A stretch of 33,278 bases of DNA. Source: Mogibacterium sp. Lineage in GTDB: Bacteria; Bacillota; Clostridia; Peptostreptococcales; Anaerovoracaceae. The notes beneath the pieces were generated by a model that was not told the DNA's origin, ran no database searches, and saw only the letters and a list, made by a program, of their open reading frames with translations. Of this stretch, positions 1-6,325 are shown in pieces (positions within the stretch are counted from its first letter, which is position 1; each line of letters starts with the position of its first letter). Location of the stretch: assembly GCA_017432075.1 (NCBI GenBank), contig JAFRJV010000107.1, positions 1 through 33,278 of the forward strand. Direction: 5' to 3'. The translations under genes were made by a program, and so were the position numbers.

Positions 1-8
1 TCCTCCTT
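1..8 (-). promoter_or_regulatory. Shine-Dalgarno of the next operon gene, beyond the window edge
   Basis: The minus strand ends in TAAGGAGGA exactly at base 1. This is a near-perfect ribosome binding site with no start codon left inside the window, so the defence operon continues with another gene immediately outside. Confidence 0.6.
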
Positions 9-89
9 ATGTTATTGAGTGGTTTCTATAACATAAGGGTATTGGCTGGCAGTTATGTCTGCAATGGATTTTTCATAGCCTGATGGAGA

Positions 90-473
90 TCAGGATCCGG
101 AGTATTTGTATCCGTATCCGCTGCAACTTTCTCCGTTTTGGAGATGCAACATTCTCCAATTTGCTCTGCAACTTTTGGTAATTACATTATGCAAAAAACA
201 CATGGAAACCGTTTCAGCAAACAGTTTTGTTGCCGGTTTTGTTATCGTCATTCCACGATAAGCAGACTCCATACTTGCCATCTGAAAAGAAATGCCGCCC
301 GTATTTCGATAAGCATCCTCTATCTCTATGCCTTTATTTATCGCCATGCGCCTTAAATCGTCTGAGCAATTCTTCACGGCATCCCGTCGCGATGTATCAC
401 CAGACACCGTCCGGAGATATGCATCGAGCAGCAATACTGCTTCATATTCTGTAAAAGGTGCCTGTCTTGCCAT
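90..473 (-). CDS. Hypothetical protein of the defence operon, possibly C-terminally truncated
   Basis: The 127-aa product begins 13 bases after the BrxA-like gene stops, with GAGGT about 11 bases before its ATG, so it belongs to the same operon. Residues 1-90 look like a compact helical domain (FTEYEAVLLLDAYL near the start, then YRNTGGISFQMASMESAY). From memory, similar N-terminal modules occur in larger clostridial proteins, but I cannot name a function. After about residue 90 the composition changes (Cys, Asn and Gly rich) and the coding DNA holds three near-copies of TGCAACTTTCTCC. The TGA stop can be read through in frame for 25 more codons to TAA at 12-14. It may therefore be an intact small gene or the remains of a longer one. 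Confidence that it is coding is fair; function is unknown. Confidence 0.6.
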   Translation of the reverse strand: MARQAPFTEYEAVLLLDAYLRTVSGDTSRRDAVKNCSDDLRRMAINKGIEIEDAYRNTGGISFQMASMESAYRGMTITKPATKLFAETVSMCFLHNVITKSCRANWRMLHLQNGESCSGYGYKYSGS

Positions 474-486
474 TTTCTATCTAACC

Positions 487-1116
487 TCAATCAATGCAAT
501 TAAAAGCTGGCAGAATGATATTCTGTCCTCTTTCTCTGATTGTTTTCTCTAACAGCGGATTAATCGAAACCTGCTGTAATATCTTAGCGTCCGTACTTTC
601 GAGATAACCATTCTCTACCAGCATTTTCGTAATCACCTGCCTGACCTTTGTCATGGTGGTACTGCTCCATGATGCCACCCACGGATCTTTGTTTTGAAGC
701 TCTTTAAGGTAGCTCTCCAAATCCTTCTTATCAAATGTGCTGTCCGATAATCGGTACTTAACACCAATAACATCAATCATGCAATCCATAACAATTCGAT
801 ACTGCTGCATCATTGCGTATAGGCAAATCTGTTTCCCTATCTGATCTGGTTGAGTAGCAATTGCCCTTATCAATGCTTCATCTCCTAATGCATTTAATCT
901 TCGCAGGCAAACTAATACCATCTTTCTCAAAGATTTATCTGAGGGATATTTATACAAATTTTCAGATACAATCCTGCTAATAACACTATCCTCGTTCAAT
1001 CCCTGATTAAGTAGCTGGGCAGTAATTTTCATCTCGTTGTATAAGAACTGCTCTCGCGTAATAGCTGCACTATATAGGCTCTTGCTCTTCAAATTTTTGT
1101 CGGTATTCTCTCTCAT
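487..1116 (-). CDS. brxA: BrxA-like protein (DUF1819 family), BREX phage-defence component
   Basis: The 209-aa length matches the roughly 200-aa DUF1819/BrxA family. The features that fit are the N-terminal SAAITREQFLYNEMKITAQLL, a middle block reading ICLYAMMQQYRIVMDCM, and the late block WSSTTMTKVRQVITKML followed by a short tail. In characterised BREX systems BrxA is a small helical DNA-binding protein encoded at the head of the operon, just before brxB, brxC and pglX. Here it follows an ABC-3C system and an XRE gene, with AGAGGT before its ATG. No brxB-sized gene follows inside the window; the next gene is the 127-aa unknown. The family call rests on remembered sequence pattern, not an alignment. 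Whether a full BREX locus lies to the left cannot be seen. Confidence 0.75.
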   Translation of the reverse strand: MRENTDKNLKSKSLYSAAITREQFLYNEMKITAQLLNQGLNEDSVISRIVSENLYKYPSDKSLRKMVLVCLRRLNALGDEALIRAIATQPDQIGKQICLYAMMQQYRIVMDCMIDVIGVKYRLSDSTFDKKDLESYLKELQNKDPWVASWSSTTMTKVRQVITKMLVENGYLESTDAKILQQVSINPLLEKTIRERGQNIILPAFNCID

Positions 1117-1135
1117 TTCATACCTCTAAGGATTT

Positions 1136-1369
1136 TCATTCCCCATCTTTATATCCTTCATCCCCTGGTTCGAGAACTGTTTCTACAATTTCATTAATAT
1201 TACAATTCAGGGCCTCACATATCTTCATTAGGACGTCTGTAGTAATATTTTCTCCCTTTCCCAGCTTGGCAAGAGACGCGGTGCTGATACCGCTAGCCTC
1301 CCTAAGCTGCTTTTTTGTCATTTCACGTTCTGCGAGTTTAATCCATAACGGTCTGTAACTGATACGCAT
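1136..1369 (-). CDS. XRE/Cro-CI family helix-turn-helix regulator
   Basis: The 77-aa product has a classic HTH core: KLAEREMTKKQLREASGIS then TASLAKLGKGENITTDVLMK and ICEALNCNINEIVE, as in small single-domain XRE regulators. It starts at ATG after a strong GGAGGTAAGGA site and lies between the DUF2326 ATPase and the BrxA-like gene in the same direction, so it is probably co-transcribed. It likely controls this operon. Candidate operators are the TTGTCCACG direct repeat in the leader and the TCTAACGTTAGA palindrome upstream of the promoter, but that link is inference. It has no ligand-binding or protease domain. Confidence 0.9.
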   Translation of the reverse strand: MRISYRPLWIKLAEREMTKKQLREASGISTASLAKLGKGENITTDVLMKICEALNCNINEIVETVLEPGDEGYKDGE

Positions 1370-1403
1370 TCCTTACCTCCATCGGATTCACTTTCCCAAA
1401 TTA

Positions 1404-3122
1404 TTACTCCGATTGCTGGGTTTCAGTATTTGTGTCTACGTCTTTATTATCTTCTTTTATCTTCTTAGCCCATGACCATCCAAATAATTCTCCTCCGTTC
1501 GCATAAAGGTCTATTACCCTCGTGTCATACAATGTTTTTGCTGTATATTCCGTAAACGCTTCAGCTTTATCAAAAGAAATGAATATCTGCTTCTTGCTCT
1601 GTACATAGAGCTGCATGATCTTATCAATAGGCAGATCAGCTACATTCTTAAAAATTAGCGAATCATGCATCAAGAACGGAAGATCCGAATTATTTAAGAT
1701 GCTCATGTCAAATATAATCAAGTTCTTGTAATTATCGCCGGTACTGGTATTGGTCTCGCATTTAAACTTATAGGTTGGTTTCCCAGTCCTCGTGTTCCCG
1801 AAGTGGATCTCCGGAGCGTATTGCTCCCCGTCATAAATGAAATCATTAAGGCGTACCATTGCCTGATTGATCATGGTCTCTAACTTCTCAAGCTGGTTCT
1901 CACGGGCAGTTTCCATCTGCTCCTTGGCAGCTTTCGTCTCAGCCGCAAGTGTACGTGTGCTTTCATAGCCTTCGTTCTGTTTTCTTAAAAAGTTTATCCT
2001 TCCTCGAAGTTCAACCGTCTTATCCAAAAACTTCTTTGATACATTGGTGGGGATACCTAGCTTGCGCTGCTCATCTTCGAGTTTTCGTACCTCCTCAGTT
2101 GCCGCATCAATCAACAGTTCCAGACGACTCACCTCATCTGTCATCTCACCTGTCAGGATAGTCTGCATCTTTTTATGAAAATTCTCGATAGTCTCCAGCT
2201 TCTCAATATCCACTTCTGGAAAATACTCCTGAAGTTCAACAATGTCATCGGATGTAGGCGTAAGACCTCCTTCTAGGTTTGCTTTTACAGCATTCAACTG
2301 AGATACCAGTCGGGTACGTTTTCTTTTCAAGATGGTAATCTGCCCCTTAATCTCTGCGGCCTTGTCCAAATTAGCAGTATCCTGTGCAGCGATATCGCTG
2401 TCTTCTTTATTTGTCAGTTCTGCAAGTTCTTGTTCAAGCCTCTCGATTTCTTTTTCGTTTTCCTTAACCTGCTTCTGTGTGGTGGCGATGGTCACGATCT
2501 CGCCGATGTCTGTAGCCTGTTTACGTACTTTCTTTCTCTTATCCTTCTCCTTATAAAAATCCTCATATTCCTTCACGAGGTCATAAATTCCGAAAAGCTG
2601 CTCCAATGCCATGATTGCAAGCTCCTCAGTCTCATCACCATACTTTAAAGGTCGGCGTTCATCATAATTATCCCTGCCGTAAATTCGTGAATAACGTCCT
2701 ACCAGACTTCGCCAGCTATTCTGGGCTGTCTGAATGGCATAGGATGCTCTCAAGTGTTTTCGAAAATCATCAATGTCCATCGGCTCCCCGTTTTGCTCAT
2801 AATCCTGACTGCAGGGGATGACCTTCTTGGAATCTAGCGTGCTTCTCTTGTAATACTCAATCCTATCTCCAAACTTGAAAGCAAAATTGATTGTATGTGT
2901 TTTTACATAACTGACAACGTTATTGATATCGTTATCCAGATAATCATCTCCGCCAAAGCAGAAATCCAGAGCTAACAGAAATGTGGATTTTCCTATCGCA
3001 TTTTCAGCCTTCTTATCTCCAAGGATAGTATTCAGTCCTTCGTGGAATCGTATCCGACCTCGCGGTACAAACTCTCCGTTTTTCTTCTCAGCAAATTTAT
3101 CACACTCGATCTCATATAACAT
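1404..3122 (-). CDS. ABC-3C system ATPase, DUF2326 SMC-like protein
   Basis: This 572-aa protein has the layout of a short SMC/Rad50-like ABC ATPase. The N-terminal P-loop reads ILGDKKAENAIGKST (GKST about residues 44-47). A long charged coiled coil covers roughly residues 190-440. The C-terminal half carries the DUF2326 pattern, with IIFDMSILNNSDLPFLMHDS and KKQIFISFDKAEAF then YANGGELFGWSW. In ABC-three-component systems this ATPase works with a middle component and an effector protein, and all three are encoded here in order. I chose the ATG at 3122 over one 27 bases upstream, because GAGG lies 9-12 bases before it and family members start MLYEIECDKF. It overlaps the previous gene by 11 bases, which suggests translational coupling. 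The trigger and target are unknown. Confidence 0.85.
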   Translation of the reverse strand: MLYEIECDKFAEKKNGEFVPRGRIRFHEGLNTILGDKKAENAIGKSTFLLALDFCFGGDDYLDNDINNVVSYVKTHTINFAFKFGDRIEYYKRSTLDSKKVIPCSQDYEQNGEPMDIDDFRKHLRASYAIQTAQNSWRSLVGRYSRIYGRDNYDERRPLKYGDETEELAIMALEQLFGIYDLVKEYEDFYKEKDKRKKVRKQATDIGEIVTIATTQKQVKENEKEIERLEQELAELTNKEDSDIAAQDTANLDKAAEIKGQITILKRKRTRLVSQLNAVKANLEGGLTPTSDDIVELQEYFPEVDIEKLETIENFHKKMQTILTGEMTDEVSRLELLIDAATEEVRKLEDEQRKLGIPTNVSKKFLDKTVELRGRINFLRKQNEGYESTRTLAAETKAAKEQMETARENQLEKLETMINQAMVRLNDFIYDGEQYAPEIHFGNTRTGKPTYKFKCETNTSTGDNYKNLIIFDMSILNNSDLPFLMHDSLIFKNVADLPIDKIMQLYVQSKKQIFISFDKAEAFTEYTAKTLYDTRVIDLYANGGELFGWSWAKKIKEDNKDVDTNTETQQSE

Positions 3123-3339
3123 AGCGTAGTACTTCCTCTTTCTCGTCATATTCTATTTTGTGAAGAGCATAAAGGCAGTCCAACACATCAATATACTCAT
3201 TCACCCCTGAAAGATTATTAATGACCTTCTGATATAGGTCATGGACTCCCATAGGCTTTTTCTTTAATTCCTTCAGTATAACCGGGAACTTACAAAGGAC
3301 GCTCTCGTTATAACTGAATAGTTTATTCGGTAATAACAT
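3112..3339 (-). CDS. ABC-three-component system middle component (MC6-like)
   Basis: This 75-aa protein begins MLLPNKLFSYNESVLCKF and continues through KKPMGVHDLYQKVIN to a C-terminal beta-rich DEKEEVLRYVI. Small proteins starting MLLP.K that lie directly before a DUF2326 ATPase match the middle component (type 6 as I remember it) of ABC-3C systems, thought to be a winged-helix-like adaptor. The start is ATG at 3339, with GAGGTG four bases upstream; another ATG four codons earlier lacks such a site. It overlaps the upstream gene by 17 bases and the downstream ATPase by 11. This tight coupling fits subunits made in fixed ratio. The subtype number is less sure than the role. Confidence 0.75.
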   Translation of the reverse strand: MLLPNKLFSYNESVLCKFPVILKELKKKPMGVHDLYQKVINNLSGVNEYIDVLDCLYALHKIEYDEKEEVLRYVI

Positions 3340-4483
3340 CAAACACCTCACATTTCTGGATAAAGTAGGAAATCACTATCTCACAGTAATCCCGTTCTTC
3401 ATTTGTTCCCCGTTGCAACCAGTCTGTAAGTTCACGATAGATGGTTACTTGATCCCGTCCTTTTTCCTTCAAATCCAGATAGTTCATCTTCACCTGCTCA
3501 CAGAACGGTTTGAAACGAAGTTCTCCCTCGCACCCCATCTGCTGCATTGTTTCTTGGACAATACTGAAGTAATAGTTCACATGCCCCTGTGCCTTCAGAT
3601 AAAGCGAAACGTTATCCGGTTCAATCTTTTTGCGGAGCATGACTGGATTGTAGTTCAAATCAACCGGTCCATTCGGGCGCATCTTAGGTATCTTTCCTAC
3701 GACCTTCCTAACACCTTCCTGAACTTTCTGGTCAGATAGCAATTCACGATCAATAGCCTGTTCAAGGAACTGTTTCTTTATTTCCTTCATCCGATGCATC
3801 GCAACCGATGACGGAAAGTTCTTATACTGTGCCGCACATTGCGGACACAACGCAATCAGATTATTTGGATCATCTGGCGATTCATCTGGATCAATAACCA
3901 CCACATCAAAAAGGAGTCCGAGATGTCCGTTCTCATCGACAAATAGTGTTCGAGTACATCCATCATTCGGGCAAATACTTCCCTCTTCAGATACAAGATA
4001 AAAACCATGTTTATTCTGTGGAAAATTGGTCAATGGTTGACCTTCTGTCGGAGCAGGAAGCACAGGTGTTTTTGCCTTCCGTTTTCTTTTACCCTTTGCT
4101 GCGGTCTGAATAATTGCTTCAAATCGTGCCCCGGTCTTTTCGCCATAGTTGCTGGCATCAATATCTTCGTAGTAATCTCGGAACTTCTCACAAATCTGTT
4201 CAATAACAGAATCTGTCTCTGTTTCAACGAAATCGGCAAACCCTTTAGGATCGAGGGAATCAGCTATCTTTTTTGCCAAAAAAGTAATGTCATGTTCTCC
4301 ATAAAAGTACGCCTTATACGTTCTATCCTCTGTCTCCTCTACGGGATGATCAACCTCTTTAGGAAGATAGATTGCAAGGAACATATCTTTTGTGAACTGT
4401 TCAGGCGATCTTCCGCCCTGAAAGAACGTTGAAAGAAAATGAGCGAACTCTTCGAATTCAGTTTTGTACTCCGTCTCCGGCAC
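3323..4483 (-). CDS. ABC-3C system effector with HNH-like zinc fold and C-terminal ABC-3C domain
   Basis: The 386-aa product starts at GTG 4483, where GGAAAGGAG lies eight bases upstream. A TTG 66 bases earlier has no site and would give a longer form. Residues 1-120 are helical. About 135-160 is a basic linker rich in KRKRKAK. Residues about 171-216 carry a treble-clef pattern: CPNDGC, then VVVIDPDES, then NNLIALCPQC (Cys 171, 176, 213, 216). This is the HNH-nuclease scaffold, but the usual catalytic His positions read Ile-Asp and Ala. The last 120 residues match the helical partner domain that follows effectors in ABC-3C systems, judging from context. It is the first gene of the operon. Whether it cuts DNA is open, because the His residues seem lost. 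Confidence 0.75.
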   Translation of the reverse strand: MPETEYKTEFEEFAHFLSTFFQGGRSPEQFTKDMFLAIYLPKEVDHPVEETEDRTYKAYFYGEHDITFLAKKIADSLDPKGFADFVETETDSVIEQICEKFRDYYEDIDASNYGEKTGARFEAIIQTAAKGKRKRKAKTPVLPAPTEGQPLTNFPQNKHGFYLVSEEGSICPNDGCTRTLFVDENGHLGLLFDVVVIDPDESPDDPNNLIALCPQCAAQYKNFPSSVAMHRMKEIKKQFLEQAIDRELLSDQKVQEGVRKVVGKIPKMRPNGPVDLNYNPVMLRKKIEPDNVSLYLKAQGHVNYYFSIVQETMQQMGCEGELRFKPFCEQVKMNYLDLKEKGRDQVTIYRELTDWLQRGTNEERDYCEIVISYFIQKCEVFDVITE

Positions 4484-4507
4484 GTTCTTCGACTCCTTTC
4501 CCTTAAG

Positions 4508-4526
4508 CGTGGACAAACGTGGACAA
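4508..4526. repeat. Direct repeat CGTGGACAA x2 in the defence-operon leader
   Basis: Two perfect 9-base copies (4508-4516 and 4518-4526) lie one helical turn apart, 25 bases before the chosen GTG start of the effector gene. The spacing suits a protein bound to one DNA face, such as the XRE regulator of the same operon, but this is inference. Confidence 0.45.
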
Positions 4527-4621
4527 TCATGTCTGCGCTTGTTCGGCAAAAAATCCGCTTTCTGATATTGTGTGCTTAGCGTTAGTAATGATCCCGATAG
4601 GTATAGGCACGCACATTACAG

Positions 4622-4650
4622 ATTATAGCACAAACACCTACGATGTTCAA
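4622..4650 (-). promoter_or_regulatory. Sigma-A type promoter of the ABC-3C/BrxA operon
   Basis: On the minus strand TTGAAC (4645-4650) and TATAAT (4622-4627) are separated by exactly 17 bases, a near-consensus housekeeping promoter. Transcription should start near 4615, giving a leader of about 130 bases before the effector gene. Confidence 0.8.
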
Positions 4651-4679
4651 TTGAAAGTTTACCATCGCAAATCTAACGT
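4651..4679 (+). promoter_or_regulatory. Possible divergent promoter for the 192-aa gene
   Basis: TTGAAA at 4651-4656 abuts the -35 of the opposite promoter to make the palindrome TTCAATTGAA. Seventeen bases on is TAACGT (4674-4679), a weak -10 that lies inside the 12-bp palindrome TCTAACGTTAGA (4672-4683). A repressor bound to that palindrome would block this promoter. The weak -10 keeps confidence low. Confidence 0.35.
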
Positions 4680-4680
4680 T

Positions 4681-4868
4681 AGAGATGACGATTTTATCAA
4701 GCATCTCTAGTCTATGGCAAAGACGAAAAACTTCCAATCATCAGGGAGTGAGCTGACCCCGATCAAGCCAGCGCCCGAAAGCCCACTGATGATTGCACCA
4801 AGTAAACCAGACCAGTCTATAGGGCAACTGGCCATTCAGACAAACAGGAGGTTTTCCTTTGAATGGCC
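4681..4868 (+). other. Gene-free divergent region with three inverted repeats ahead of the 192-aa gene
   Basis: The stretch 4551-4935 has no convincing long gene. Besides the promoters it holds three perfect inverted repeats: AGAGATG/CATCTCT (4681-4687 and 4702-4708), CAATCATCAG/CTGATGATTG (4735-4744 and 4786-4795), and GGCCATTC/GAATGGCC (4830-4837 and 4861-4868). The last has a 23-base loop containing AGGAGG (4846-4851), with TTG 4859 and ATG 4863 just after, so a ribosome site is held in a hairpin loop. As plus-strand RNA this would be a structured leader. It does not match a riboswitch I know. Confidence 0.5.
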
Positions 4869-4935
4869 GTCACGACAGACTAATTGAATATCGCCATCTT
4901 GCGGATGCCTCCGCGAAATTCACAGGAGGCAAAAG

Positions 4936-5514
4936 ATGGCCGATATCAATCTTAACCAGTACGCCGATAAAAAAACGTACAATAATCGTCCTGTACCAGA
5001 AGGACAGTTTCTTGCCCCTTTCCTTGTATCGGATTGGGCAGAGGTTAAAGCAATGAACTATCATCGCGAGAACCTTGAAACCTGGCACTTCAGCGGCATC
5101 GCCGTTTTAGTCGCCTTCACACCGGTCACGGCAGAACAGTTCCCCGGCACCATGAAGCTCTTTTGGAGTGATGTTCGAGACTATATTGCCGAACTTAAGG
5201 GTGATCCATATACTATCTCTTACGATAAGTTTTTGGAAGACATGAAAGCTGAAGGAGAAGGCGGCTATGATCCCGCCCAGACGGAATCCTTTGAGAACAC
5301 CACCCTGCTCGGAATGATCATTGATGATCTGATCCGTGAAGTCGGTGAGAAAAATCCTCGCTACGGTCGTATTCTTAATCTCATCAAGCAGGAATACACC
5401 AAGGGCGAAATCCTTGATGCGCTTCTCTCGGAATATGGCATCAAGAAAACCCAGGCATATTCCGAAATCAAAGCAGCTCAGAAGCTGGCTAAGGATCTCT
5501 ACTATGCCGACTAA
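4936..5514 (+). CDS. Mobile-element-type hypothetical protein with C-terminal HTH-like region
   Basis: The 192-aa acidic protein starts at ATG after AGGAGGCAAAAG, an excellent ribosome site. The N-terminal 100 residues (NLNQYADKKTYNNRPVPEG, then YHRENLETWHFSGIAVLVAF) resemble, from memory, uncharacterised proteins in clostridial integrative elements. The C-terminal 60 residues (NPRYGRILNLIKQEYTKGE, then ILDALLSEYGIKKTQAY) read like a helix-turn-helix of the sigma-region-4 sort. I have no function beyond possible regulation. It is the only long plus-strand gene of the accessory region, stands alone between the structured leader and a hairpin at 5537-5574, and diverges from the defence operon. 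Confidence 0.75.
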   Translation: MADINLNQYADKKTYNNRPVPEGQFLAPFLVSDWAEVKAMNYHRENLETWHFSGIAVLVAFTPVTAEQFPGTMKLFWSDVRDYIAELKGDPYTISYDKFLEDMKAEGEGGYDPAQTESFENTTLLGMIIDDLIREVGEKNPRYGRILNLIKQEYTKGEILDALLSEYGIKKTQAYSEIKAAQKLAKDLYYAD

Positions 5515-5536
5515 CACAGACCGGCACAAATGAAAG

Positions 5537-5574
5537 AAGCAGCGATACTGGAACTATCTCCGGTACCGCTGCTT
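5537..5574 (+). terminator. Hairpin after the 192-aa gene, possible bidirectional terminator
   Basis: AAGCAGCG pairs with CGCTGCTT, and the stem continues through TAC/GTA and TGGA/TCC with one mismatch. It lies 22 bases after the TAA of the plus-strand gene and 25 bases after the end of the minus-strand 92-aa gene. The T tracts on both sides are weak, so efficiency is unsure. Confidence 0.5.
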
Positions 5575-5598
5575 TGCTGTGTGCCATTATATTCGATT

Positions 5599-5877
5599 TT
5601 ATCTCTTAGACGGTCTGCCCTGCATCTGCCACCTGTCATGACTCTGTATGCTCCGGACAGCCTGCTTTAAGCTATTCGCACGACCGTGCTGGTGATATGG
5701 ATGTGATGCCTTATGCTTATGGAAAATGATACATGTCCCCGGTGTCGGATACTCCGGATTATGAATAAACCAGAAGTGCCCTGTATTCCGGCTCATAATC
5801 GTCACATCAAAAGCATCTGTAAAGATGATGGAGAAATACTTTGGATCCAGAACGGAAAGTTCATTCGCATCAAACAT
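5599..5877 (-). CDS. Small hypothetical protein coupled to the SymE-like gene
   Basis: The 92-aa product starts at ATG 5877 (MFDANELSVLDPKYFS), preceded by GGAGAGGGGGAAGG. A longer reading from 5931 would sit wholly inside the upstream gene and has no ribosome site. It overlaps the SymE-like stop by eight bases, so the two are translationally coupled. The middle holds MSRNTGHFWFIHNPEYP and IIFHKHKASHPYHQHGRA, His/aromatic-rich and suggestive of a small folded domain. I recall similar companions of SymE in clostridial mobile elements but know no function. It could be an immunity or accessory factor; that is a guess. Confidence 0.65.
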   Translation of the reverse strand: MFDANELSVLDPKYFSIIFTDAFDVTIMSRNTGHFWFIHNPEYPTPGTCIIFHKHKASHPYHQHGRANSLKQAVRSIQSHDRWQMQGRPSKR

Positions 5878-6208
5878 AGACCTTCCCCCTCTCCTGATCC
5901 TTAGCATATTCTGCCTGCCGCTCTGCCACAAACTGTGCGTGGAGCTTTTTCTTTTCCTTCAGAAAACGTTCATGCAGCCTTCTGGTCTCTTTCTCCATAA
6001 ATGCCTTCACTGCCTCGATCAGCTCCGCTCTTGCAGTGTCCAGGCTGATGATGAGCTTACCATCCTCGCACTTGACCAATACCGGATCTCCGATATGGAA
6101 ACCGGCAGCCTCCAGCCACTGTCCCATCAGCCGGATCGCCGGAACGGATTTGTAGTTGTATCCGCTCTGTGCGCAAACCTTCAGTTCCCGTTCGTTTTTC
6201 TTTGCCAT
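5870..6208 (-). CDS. SymE-like type I toxin family protein
   Basis: The 113-aa product starts at ATG 6208 after AAGGAGGACAAACAC. The N-terminal half (ELKVCAQSGYNYKSVPAIR, then LMGQWLEAAGFHIGDPVLV and KCEDGKLIIS) carries the SymE pattern, an AbrB-like fold known from the SOS-induced E. coli toxin, which acts as an RNase-like or nucleoid-binding factor. The C-terminal half (residues about 55-110) is a Lys/Arg/Glu-rich helix, longer than in E. coli SymE. A GTG further upstream at 6271 would begin inside the terminator stem of the neighbouring operon and is rejected. E. coli symE is repressed by LexA and an antisense RNA; I see no clear LexA box or antisense promoter here. Confidence 0.75.
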   Translation of the reverse strand: MAKKNERELKVCAQSGYNYKSVPAIRLMGQWLEAAGFHIGDPVLVKCEDGKLIISLDTARAELIEAVKAFMEKETRRLHERFLKEKKKLHAQFVAERQAEYAKDQERGKVYV

Positions 6209-6240
6209 GTGTTTGTCCTCCTTTTTCAATCGTTTGGCTT

Positions 6241-6288
6241 GAAACAAAACAAGCTGCAGATCTCGGATCACTTCCGCATCTGCAGCTT
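6241..6288 (-). terminator. Rho-independent terminator of the ruv-que-rlmD operon
   Basis: On the minus strand a perfect 11-bp stem AAGCTGCAGAT/ATCTGCAGCTT (6278-6288 and 6251-6261) with a 16-base loop is followed by GTTTTGTTTC. It lies about 38 bases after the rlmD-like stop and marks the likely edge between core chromosome and the accessory region. Confidence 0.8.
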
Positions 6289-6325
6289 ATCTATTCAAAT
6301 TCCTATTCGATTGTGAGGCTGAACT

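Follow-up and report, generated by a model that had tools for sequence, protein, structure and literature searches.

An ABC-3C-XRE cassette at the head of a probable, transposon-broken BREX operon in Mogibacterium sp., and its recurrence ahead of other modification systems

Results

Gene content of the Mogibacterium locus

We analysed a stretch of 33,278 nucleotides (the window) from Mogibacterium sp. (GenBank assembly GCA_017432075.1, contig JAFRJV010000107.1, positions 1 to 33,278 of the forward strand; contig C19 in our numbering), in which an ABC three-component (ABC-3C) cassette, a small XRE-family regulator gene and a gene for the bacteriophage exclusion (BREX) protein BrxA lie in one minus-strand operon (Table 1). 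The source genome is incomplete (2.75 Mb in 160 contigs, 83% complete) and base 1 of the window is a contig end. An earlier note on this DNA, made from the sequence alone, had described six minus-strand genes with overlaps or short gaps behind one promoter. This description held: all six frames were found, with gaps of -29, -38, +34, +19 and +13 nt in gene order from the CTD11 gene, and Pfam named five of them, all far above the cut-offs, including the DUF1819 and DUF2326 families on which the note had made its reading depend. The sixth frame (90-473) matched no Pfam family. The promoter scan gave 8 sites overall against a mean of 11.7 in shuffled sequences, so there was no excess; the site at 4650..4622 stands out by its conservation in L059, which is the full contig of a locus (L006) from a Eubacteriales metagenome-assembled genome.

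The first three genes comprise an effector with a C-terminal domain (CTD), a middle component and an ABC ATPase in one operon with overlapping frames (PF20277, PF20292 and PF10088/AAA_23), which is the composition of an ABC-3C system, a name reportedly given by Krishnan et al. in 2020. PADLOC matched the cassette only in part, as LmuA and PDC-M68. Sequence searches of the PDB found no match for the window ATPase and two chance-level matches only for the CTD11 protein.

Table 1. Features of the window and partner systems of related loci. Positions refer to the window unless loci are named.
Feature	Position or loci	Strand	Evidence
Sigma-70-type operon promoter, TTGAAC-17-TATAAT	4622..4650	-	Sequence and spacing the same in the L059 alignment
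ABC-3C CTD11 protein, long form	3323..4549, probable start 4483	-	PF20277 5e-32; phrog_6948 2.7e-46
Domains of the CTD11 protein	N-terminal ~aa 23-165; degenerate HNH zinc ribbon ~166-262; CTD11 ~263-408		Our own division
ABC-3C middle component MC7	3112..3351	-	PF20292 2.4e-23; phrog_6259 6.5e-22
DUF2326 ABC/SMC-like ATPase of ABC-3C	1404..3149	-	PF10088 2.5e-21, AAA_23 4.1e-10; phrog_5467 7.4e-124
Small XRE/HTH_26 regulator, joint of cassette and partner	1136..1369	-	HTH_26 1.2e-18
BrxA (DUF1819), type-1-like	487..1116	-	PF08849 4.5e-55; PADLOC BrxA 5.8e-56
First 91 codons of 826-aa gene, transposon-broken	200..473	-	98% DNA identity to L006 4676-4949
IS21-family element end	1..199	-	93% identical over 201 bp to L154
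Divergent phage-type gene upstream of cassette	4936..5514	+	phrog_2513 1.7e-13
Partner: type III-like N6_N4 methylase + ResIII	8 loci: L084, L091, L115, L117-L121		
Partner: type I	L087, L090		
Partner: C5 methylase + SNF2 + N6_N4 methylase	L088		
Partner: HsdR N-terminal domain at contig end	L086		
Partner: BREX	Window, through L059		

The operon continues as type 4 BREX in a relative

L006 aligns to the window from base 200 to ~4680, with divergence over the start of the CTD11 gene. In L059 the operon runs uninterrupted in the order ABC-3C, XRE, BrxA, an 826-amino-acid (aa) protein, BrxP, BrxC, PglZ, BrxL, a 65-aa protein and a DndA/SspA-like cysteine desulfurase (PADLOC bit scores of 790 for BrxP, 930 for BrxC, 330 for PglZ and 681 for BrxL). 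Amino acid identity between the window and L059 is 96% for the ATPase, 100% for the XRE protein, 93% for BrxA, 95% for MC7 and 64% for the whole CTD11 protein. The set that makes up type 4 BREX (BrxP, BrxC, PglZ and BrxL) is therefore present in L059, and the window holds just 91 codons of its leading gene.

The earlier note had seen the ABC-3C triad immediately before the gene that normally opens a BREX operon, as if both were under shared control. L059, which continues into a full BREX set, bears out this placement, with control apparently shared. The fused ABC-3C/BREX locus that it had considered likewise exists through L059, but as type 4: tblastn of L059 with type 1 BrxB and PglX queries gave no match. 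The brxB and pglX genes expected as followers thus did not appear; the two genes, which type 1 BREX requires beside brxA, stand there in other relatives and in L162 and L188. By its gene content the L059 operon is a predicted phosphorothioation (type 4) BREX system with a type-1-like BrxA. The BrxP of L006 has a phosphoadenosine phosphosulfate (PAPS) reductase domain, a ferredoxin-like region and a weak match to DUF4007 (0.0035, below the Pfam cut-off). Since BrxA is encoded separately beside this weak match in BrxP, the operon seems to carry both BrxA and DUF4007, the latter being taken as the type 4 counterpart of BrxA by Rakesh and Krishnan 2026 (PMC12839542), who also describe the brxPCZL set and report BrxB-like domains fused into type 4 PglZ.

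The 826-aa protein (L006 copy) matched no family in Pfam, PADLOC or NCBIfam and had no match in plasmids; it may be an unlisted component of type 4 BREX. We also searched for BrxP in samples of the order (393 genomes) and the class (391 genomes) and fetched 16 stretches, leaving out the 11 of 17 genomes in the order sample which gave partial matches only (265-301 bits). BrxA or ABC-3C was found by tblastn in 0/16 of these stretches, 12 of which show at least 1.5 kb upstream of BrxP, and a viral scan with the BrxP query gave no match. A homologue of the 826-aa protein precedes BrxP in 7/16 stretches (L062, L063, L065, L149, L151, L152 and L153), with lengths of 693-1055 aa and a split in L151. 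A small XRE gene lies directly before it in L063, L151 and L153.

A search of 98 other genomes found BrxA in 13, and type 1 BrxB and BrxC adjoin it in all 13 fetched loci. The window BrxA groups with that of a type 1 BREX system on a Ligilactobacillus salivarius plasmid (L003; 55% identity, support 95/94) and is 57% and 56% identical to its counterparts in two viral loci with type 1 BREX, L162 and L188. Both viral loci have the order ABC-3C, XRE, BrxA, BrxB, BrxC, PglX. Two further viral loci, L164 and L221, have ABC-3C, XRE, an 826-aa homologue, BrxP and BrxC (type 4), with no BrxA match. The gene order that the earlier note had wanted sought in other genomes was thus found in L059, and ABC-3C together with BREX in L162, L188, L164 and L221. 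The closest proteins found to the window XRE are those of L188 (83% identity), L170 (80%) and L162 (71%), all from viral ABC-3C loci; the L. salivarius protein (L003) reaches 64%.

The window operon is cut by an IS21-family element

Homology to L059 ends at window base 200, and the frame 90-473 is the 5' part of the 826-aa gene, which is intact in L059; in the window the broken frame continues inside the insertion sequence to base 90. The unknown sixth protein of the earlier note therefore exists as a frame but only as the head of a gene cut by IS21, and we rejected it as a real small gene. A copy of the element in L154 encodes a 509-aa transposase and IstB (PF01695, 4.4e-49) with inverted ends ~2.66 kb apart, the istA/istB arrangement between inverted ends that marks IS21; the corresponding genes of the window copy would lie past the contig end. 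A ribosome-binding site at base 1 had been read as a sign that another gene follows. This gene is very probably the IS21 transposase, because the transposase gene of the 93% identical element starts 7 nt past the place matching window base 1; the site was rejected as the start signal of a BREX gene. In any case, the insertion splits the gene behind BrxA.

Elsewhere in the assembled genome of the window no further DNA match was found when we searched with the part of L006 that begins with the 826-aa gene and reaches into the start of pglZ, and so excludes brxL and the desulfurase. The genome also gave no member of the BrxB family and, at the thresholds used, no match to BrxP. A PglZ-family match at positions 4181-4342 of another contig (C60) is sub-threshold (E 1e-3, 19.7 bits, family cut-off 25). 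Searches for the insertion sequence end in viral sequences and in plasmids gave no match in either.

The cassette recurs ahead of different modification systems

To place the window cassette among its relatives, we used MC7 as the marker in two genome samples. The Pfam cut-off was passed in 13/391 genomes of the class and 13/398 of the phylum, after dropping 2 and 4 rows below it, and as the window is in both samples this gave 25 distinct loci. An XRE gene of the window's family adjoins the triad in 16 of the 25 (that of L091 was recognised by alignment). A modification operon lies directly downstream on the same strand in 13 of these 16, with the window counted through BrxA and L059, and in 0 of the 9 loci without XRE (BLAST with a restriction-modification (RM) and BREX query set). 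The association between XRE and partner was significant (Fisher: P = 1.1e-4), also without the window (12/15, P = 3.4e-4) and with the type III clade counted once (6/9, P = 0.009), although simple counts are inflated by the phylogenetic dependence among loci. The partners are of several kinds (Table 1). Among the other XRE-bearing loci, L122 has a 378-aa gene without a family downstream, with a C5 methylase gene on the opposite strand, and in L089 the contig ends soon after the cassette. Divergent phage replication genes lie upstream in 10/25 loci, all of them with XRE (the match is weak, 23%, in L117 and L118), and the window-type ATPase was found in five phage records with the other cassette genes adjoining. 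In the window itself, CTD11, MC7, the ATPase and the divergent upstream gene all match phage protein families (phrog entries in Table 1).

Viral contigs were searched with an alignment of 11 coupled ATPases. The best 80 of 93 relatives were kept (61 clusters at 90% identity), the CTD11 protein was recognised in 77 of these and the 3 without a recognised frame were dropped. Because the query held coupled forms only, the viral rates are not base rates, and the two samples overlap (the ATPases of L156-L158 are 100% identical to that of L090, and that of L166 nearly so to that of L122). Of the 53 viral loci that show 2 kb or more downstream, 32 have modification genes there (BLAST; some as fragments only), or 24/43 by cluster: type III-like (n = 10), type I (n = 8), C5/SNF2 (n = 7), other N6_N4 (n = 3), BREX type 1 (n = 2) and BREX type 4 (n = 2). 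Upstream, same-strand modification genes (>60 bits) were found in 0/77 loci and divergent phage replication genes in 54/77. Where at least 500 nt are visible downstream, XRE stands beside the triad in 55/62 loci, 45 after the ATPase gene and 10 before the CTD11 gene; these counts were taken from tblastn because HMM calls missed XRE genes (e.g. in L164 and L221). The seven viral loci without XRE include the three with an intact HNH motif (see below).

By these gene orders, ABC-3C-XRE is a recurrent, prophage-borne head module ahead of type 1 and type 4 BREX, type I, type II-like and type III-like RM, DUF499 and Druantia-type systems. One locus labelled C5/SNF2 by BLAST (L199, 10046-16583) holds by Pfam a DUF499 and DUF1156 pair of a BREX-related type, and in L203 (10028-13624) the cassette precedes a 1198-aa protein which matches DruA.

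We built an ATPase tree from 39 hand-picked rows, 28 of them from the 80 viral loci. Stand-alone forms make up a single clade (100/99), as do the type III-linked forms (100/100). Partner type must have changed, on well-supported branches, at least 3 times for type 4 BREX, at least 3 for type I, at least 2 for type II-like and at least 2 for type 1 BREX, and the tree thus shows repeated exchange of partners. L170 and L162, a locus with type 1 BREX, group with the window and L059 at 100/100. Read most simply, this grouping suggests an ancestor like L162 (ABC-3C-XRE-BrxA-type 1 BREX) in which everything from brxB onward gave way to a type 4 core while BrxA stayed; the direction of the change is inferred.

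The coupled CTD11 protein has lost the HNH histidine pair

HNH nucleases carry a motif with paired histidines (xHI ... N ... CxxCH). The window protein reads VVID ... CPQCA at these columns, with both histidines absent. The HNH-like ABC-3C effector of the earlier note thus has the CTD11 domain, but its HNH region lacks the histidine pair and we rejected HNH as a working effector in the window. In genomes and plasmids (L095 and L126 were left out of this comparison) the pattern is kept in 7 of 9 stand-alone entries, which are short CTD11 proteins of ~250 aa; the two exceptions are L116, apparently a long form that has been truncated, and L123, which fails to align. Both histidines are found in 0/21 long-form entries, among which L089 is without the region, L115 has the first histidine only and L086 the last only. 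The viral forms of at least 300 aa have both in 0/71 (first only in 8, of which 5 are type III-linked, and second only in 7), and the short viral entries in 3/6, the other three being incomplete. The intact-HNH forms make up one clade (100/99). As the pair is lost across the coupled long forms, nuclease activity has very probably gone from the coupled form.

The N-terminal domain of the window protein matches PADLOC LmuA (4e-12), and that of relatives matches HamA of Hachiman: in L115 (10100-11338) at 6e-35 over the first 180 of 490 positions and in L090 (8835-9989) at 1e-8. From these matches the domain seems to be common to different defence families (HamA and LmuA). It is also the fastest-changing part of the operon, with 45% identity between the window (~4050-4483) and L059 compared to 75% for the zinc ribbon and 77% for CTD11, a divergence that looks as if it arose under arms-race pressure or by recombination.

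Other features of the locus

The phrog_2513 family of the divergent upstream gene also adjoins the cassette in Streptococcus phage phiStag1 (L127). In two Streptococcus prophages (L127 and L128) the cassette and XRE are followed by IS66 genes or accessory cargo and no modification system. A SymE-type toxin gene (window 5870-6271, minus strand; PF08845, 1.2e-14) lies between the cassette region and the genes from 6326 onwards. An Rfam scan of window 1-6300 matched nothing.

Discussion

We propose, with a probability of roughly 0.55, that the locus is the head of a composite, prophage-derived anti-phage operon, made up of ABC-3C (Lamassu superfamily), XRE, a type-1-like BrxA and a type 4 BREX core that is cut here by IS21. 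In this proposal ABC-3C-XRE is a mobile unit for the 5' end of exchangeable modification systems and is likely their second line of defence. The genes would be co-transcribed and the products of the triad would act as a complex. The SMC-like DUF2326 ATPase with MC7 would sense phage DNA or a partner that has failed, as it might under attack by a phage anti-restriction protein. It would then switch on the CTD11 protein, whose fast-changing N-terminal domain, rather than the dead HNH region, would be the sensor or the effector. The XRE protein may keep cassette and partner co-expressed, and the guard would be triggered once the partner encounters a phage or is overcome by one. The suggestion in the earlier note that the triad serves as a guard or extra module fits its recurrence in many loci. 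Only tentatively would we go further and propose a universal prophage plug-in head, in which a nuclease-dead ABC-3C with XRE acts as the common sensor or guard of swappable systems (BREX types 1 and 4, type I-III RM, DUF499 and Druantia-type), and in which the window lineage swapped type 1 for type 4 BREX, kept its old BrxA and so came to have two alternative DNA-recognition subunits (BrxA and DUF4007).

Several observations weigh against the proposal. Prophage cargo sites collect defence genes anyway, L094 has XRE and no visible partner, and type I RM genes occur in the 9 kb upstream of two stand-alone loci, L092 and L095. Several phage copies stop after XRE or run into other cargo, and BLAST found no modification genes in 21 of the 53 viral loci. 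Pfam, applied to 10 of those 21, showed restriction, methylase or Druantia genes in 7 (L160, L166, L172, L191, L203, L227 and L233), although in L166, L172, L191 and L233 these are on the opposite strand only, and none in L176, L180 and L197. The nearest relative found for the window XRE is the L188 protein, but the ATPases of the two loci sit on different branches of the tree; the parts therefore do not all have the same history, a hint of recombination where cassette and partner join. An AlphaFold model of the CTD11 protein, made with 3 sequences, has a mean predicted local distance difference test (pLDDT) score of 46; it was too poor to be used for a fold search and does not say what the N-terminal domain is.

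A rather unlikely alternative is that the coupled ABC-3C, its own nuclease gone, is a sensor or loader which recruits or licenses the restriction activity of the downstream system (BREX, type I, II or III). The loss of the HNH pair in coupled long forms points this way, with the pair kept in most stand-alone forms and in three viral forms without XRE and with the intact forms in a clade of their own, and so does the N-terminal domain, which in L115 corresponds to the first part of HamA; the HamA nuclease lies beyond that part. The partners are very different enzymes, which makes a single docking mode hard to picture, the N-terminal domain could itself be an effector, and nothing found indicates contact between cassette and partner proteins. 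It is still more doubtful that the cassette is a passenger, with ABC-3C and BREX or RM genes as independent cargo of the same prophage site that share only an XRE-flanked position. The divergent phage replication genes upstream in both samples and the cassettes without a partner agree with such cargo, but the order and strand are fixed, the gaps are short, XRE stands beside the triad in most viral loci, same-strand modification genes are absent upstream and the HNH pair is lost in the coupled branch; a mere passenger is less likely than either a guard or a nuclease-less sensor. Very improbable, finally, is that BrxA serves a non-BREX system here. The absence from the assembled genome of the BrxB family and of further matches to the L006 core stretch searched would agree with this, but in L059 type 4 BREX stands directly behind BrxA and the window breaks at IS21 inside the first core gene. 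We rejected this reading.

The proposed composite operon resembles known systems in its parts. It shares with type 4 BREX, as described in PMC12839542, the BrxP, BrxC, PglZ, BrxL and DndA-like desulfurase of L059, where the 65-aa protein takes the place of the zinc-finger gene, and differs in adding a canonical BrxA (DUF1819), the 826-aa first gene and the ABC-3C head. Type 1 BREX with an XRE-BrxA leader (L003, L162 and L188) has a BrxA 55-57% identical to that of the window, and L162 and L188 are also ABC-3C-headed, but brxB, brxC and pglX follow (in L003 also pglZ and brxL) and not a type 4 core. With the ABC-3C/Lamassu superfamily (PMC10586767) the cassette shares an effector with a CTD, a small middle component and an SMC-like ATPase in the same order; its lost HNH pair, extra N-terminal domain, XRE gene and often a downstream modification system set it apart. 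Backup modules have been proposed beside BREX in the form of OLD-ABC pairs and various nucleases (PMC12839542). Like these OLD-ABC/PARIS-type effectors, a proposed second line, the cassette places an ABC-type ATPase and an effector beside BREX, but it consists of DUF2326, MC7 and CTD11 rather than OLD/TOPRIM, lies at the 5' end and also occurs with several RM types. The main text of PMC12839542 gave no match for ABC-3C, DUF2326 or Lamassu. No coupling of ABC-3C to modification systems was found in literature titles and abstract openings, where a single paper (PMC12409362) came up with both ABC-3C and BREX; an earlier classification of ABC ATPases may describe ABC-3C beside RM.

These results bear on the open question of how BREX and RM systems hold out against the anti-restriction proteins of phages. 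If the proposal is true, one ABC-3C cassette before unrelated modification systems would be a general guard with a swappable partner, and as a single cassette recurs with many partners, guard function could be examined for many of them in the same experiments. A sharp, testable prediction comes from the coupled branch, in which the nuclease motif is lost, and a type 4 BREX operon with a type-1-like BrxA points to the exchange of cores between BREX types.

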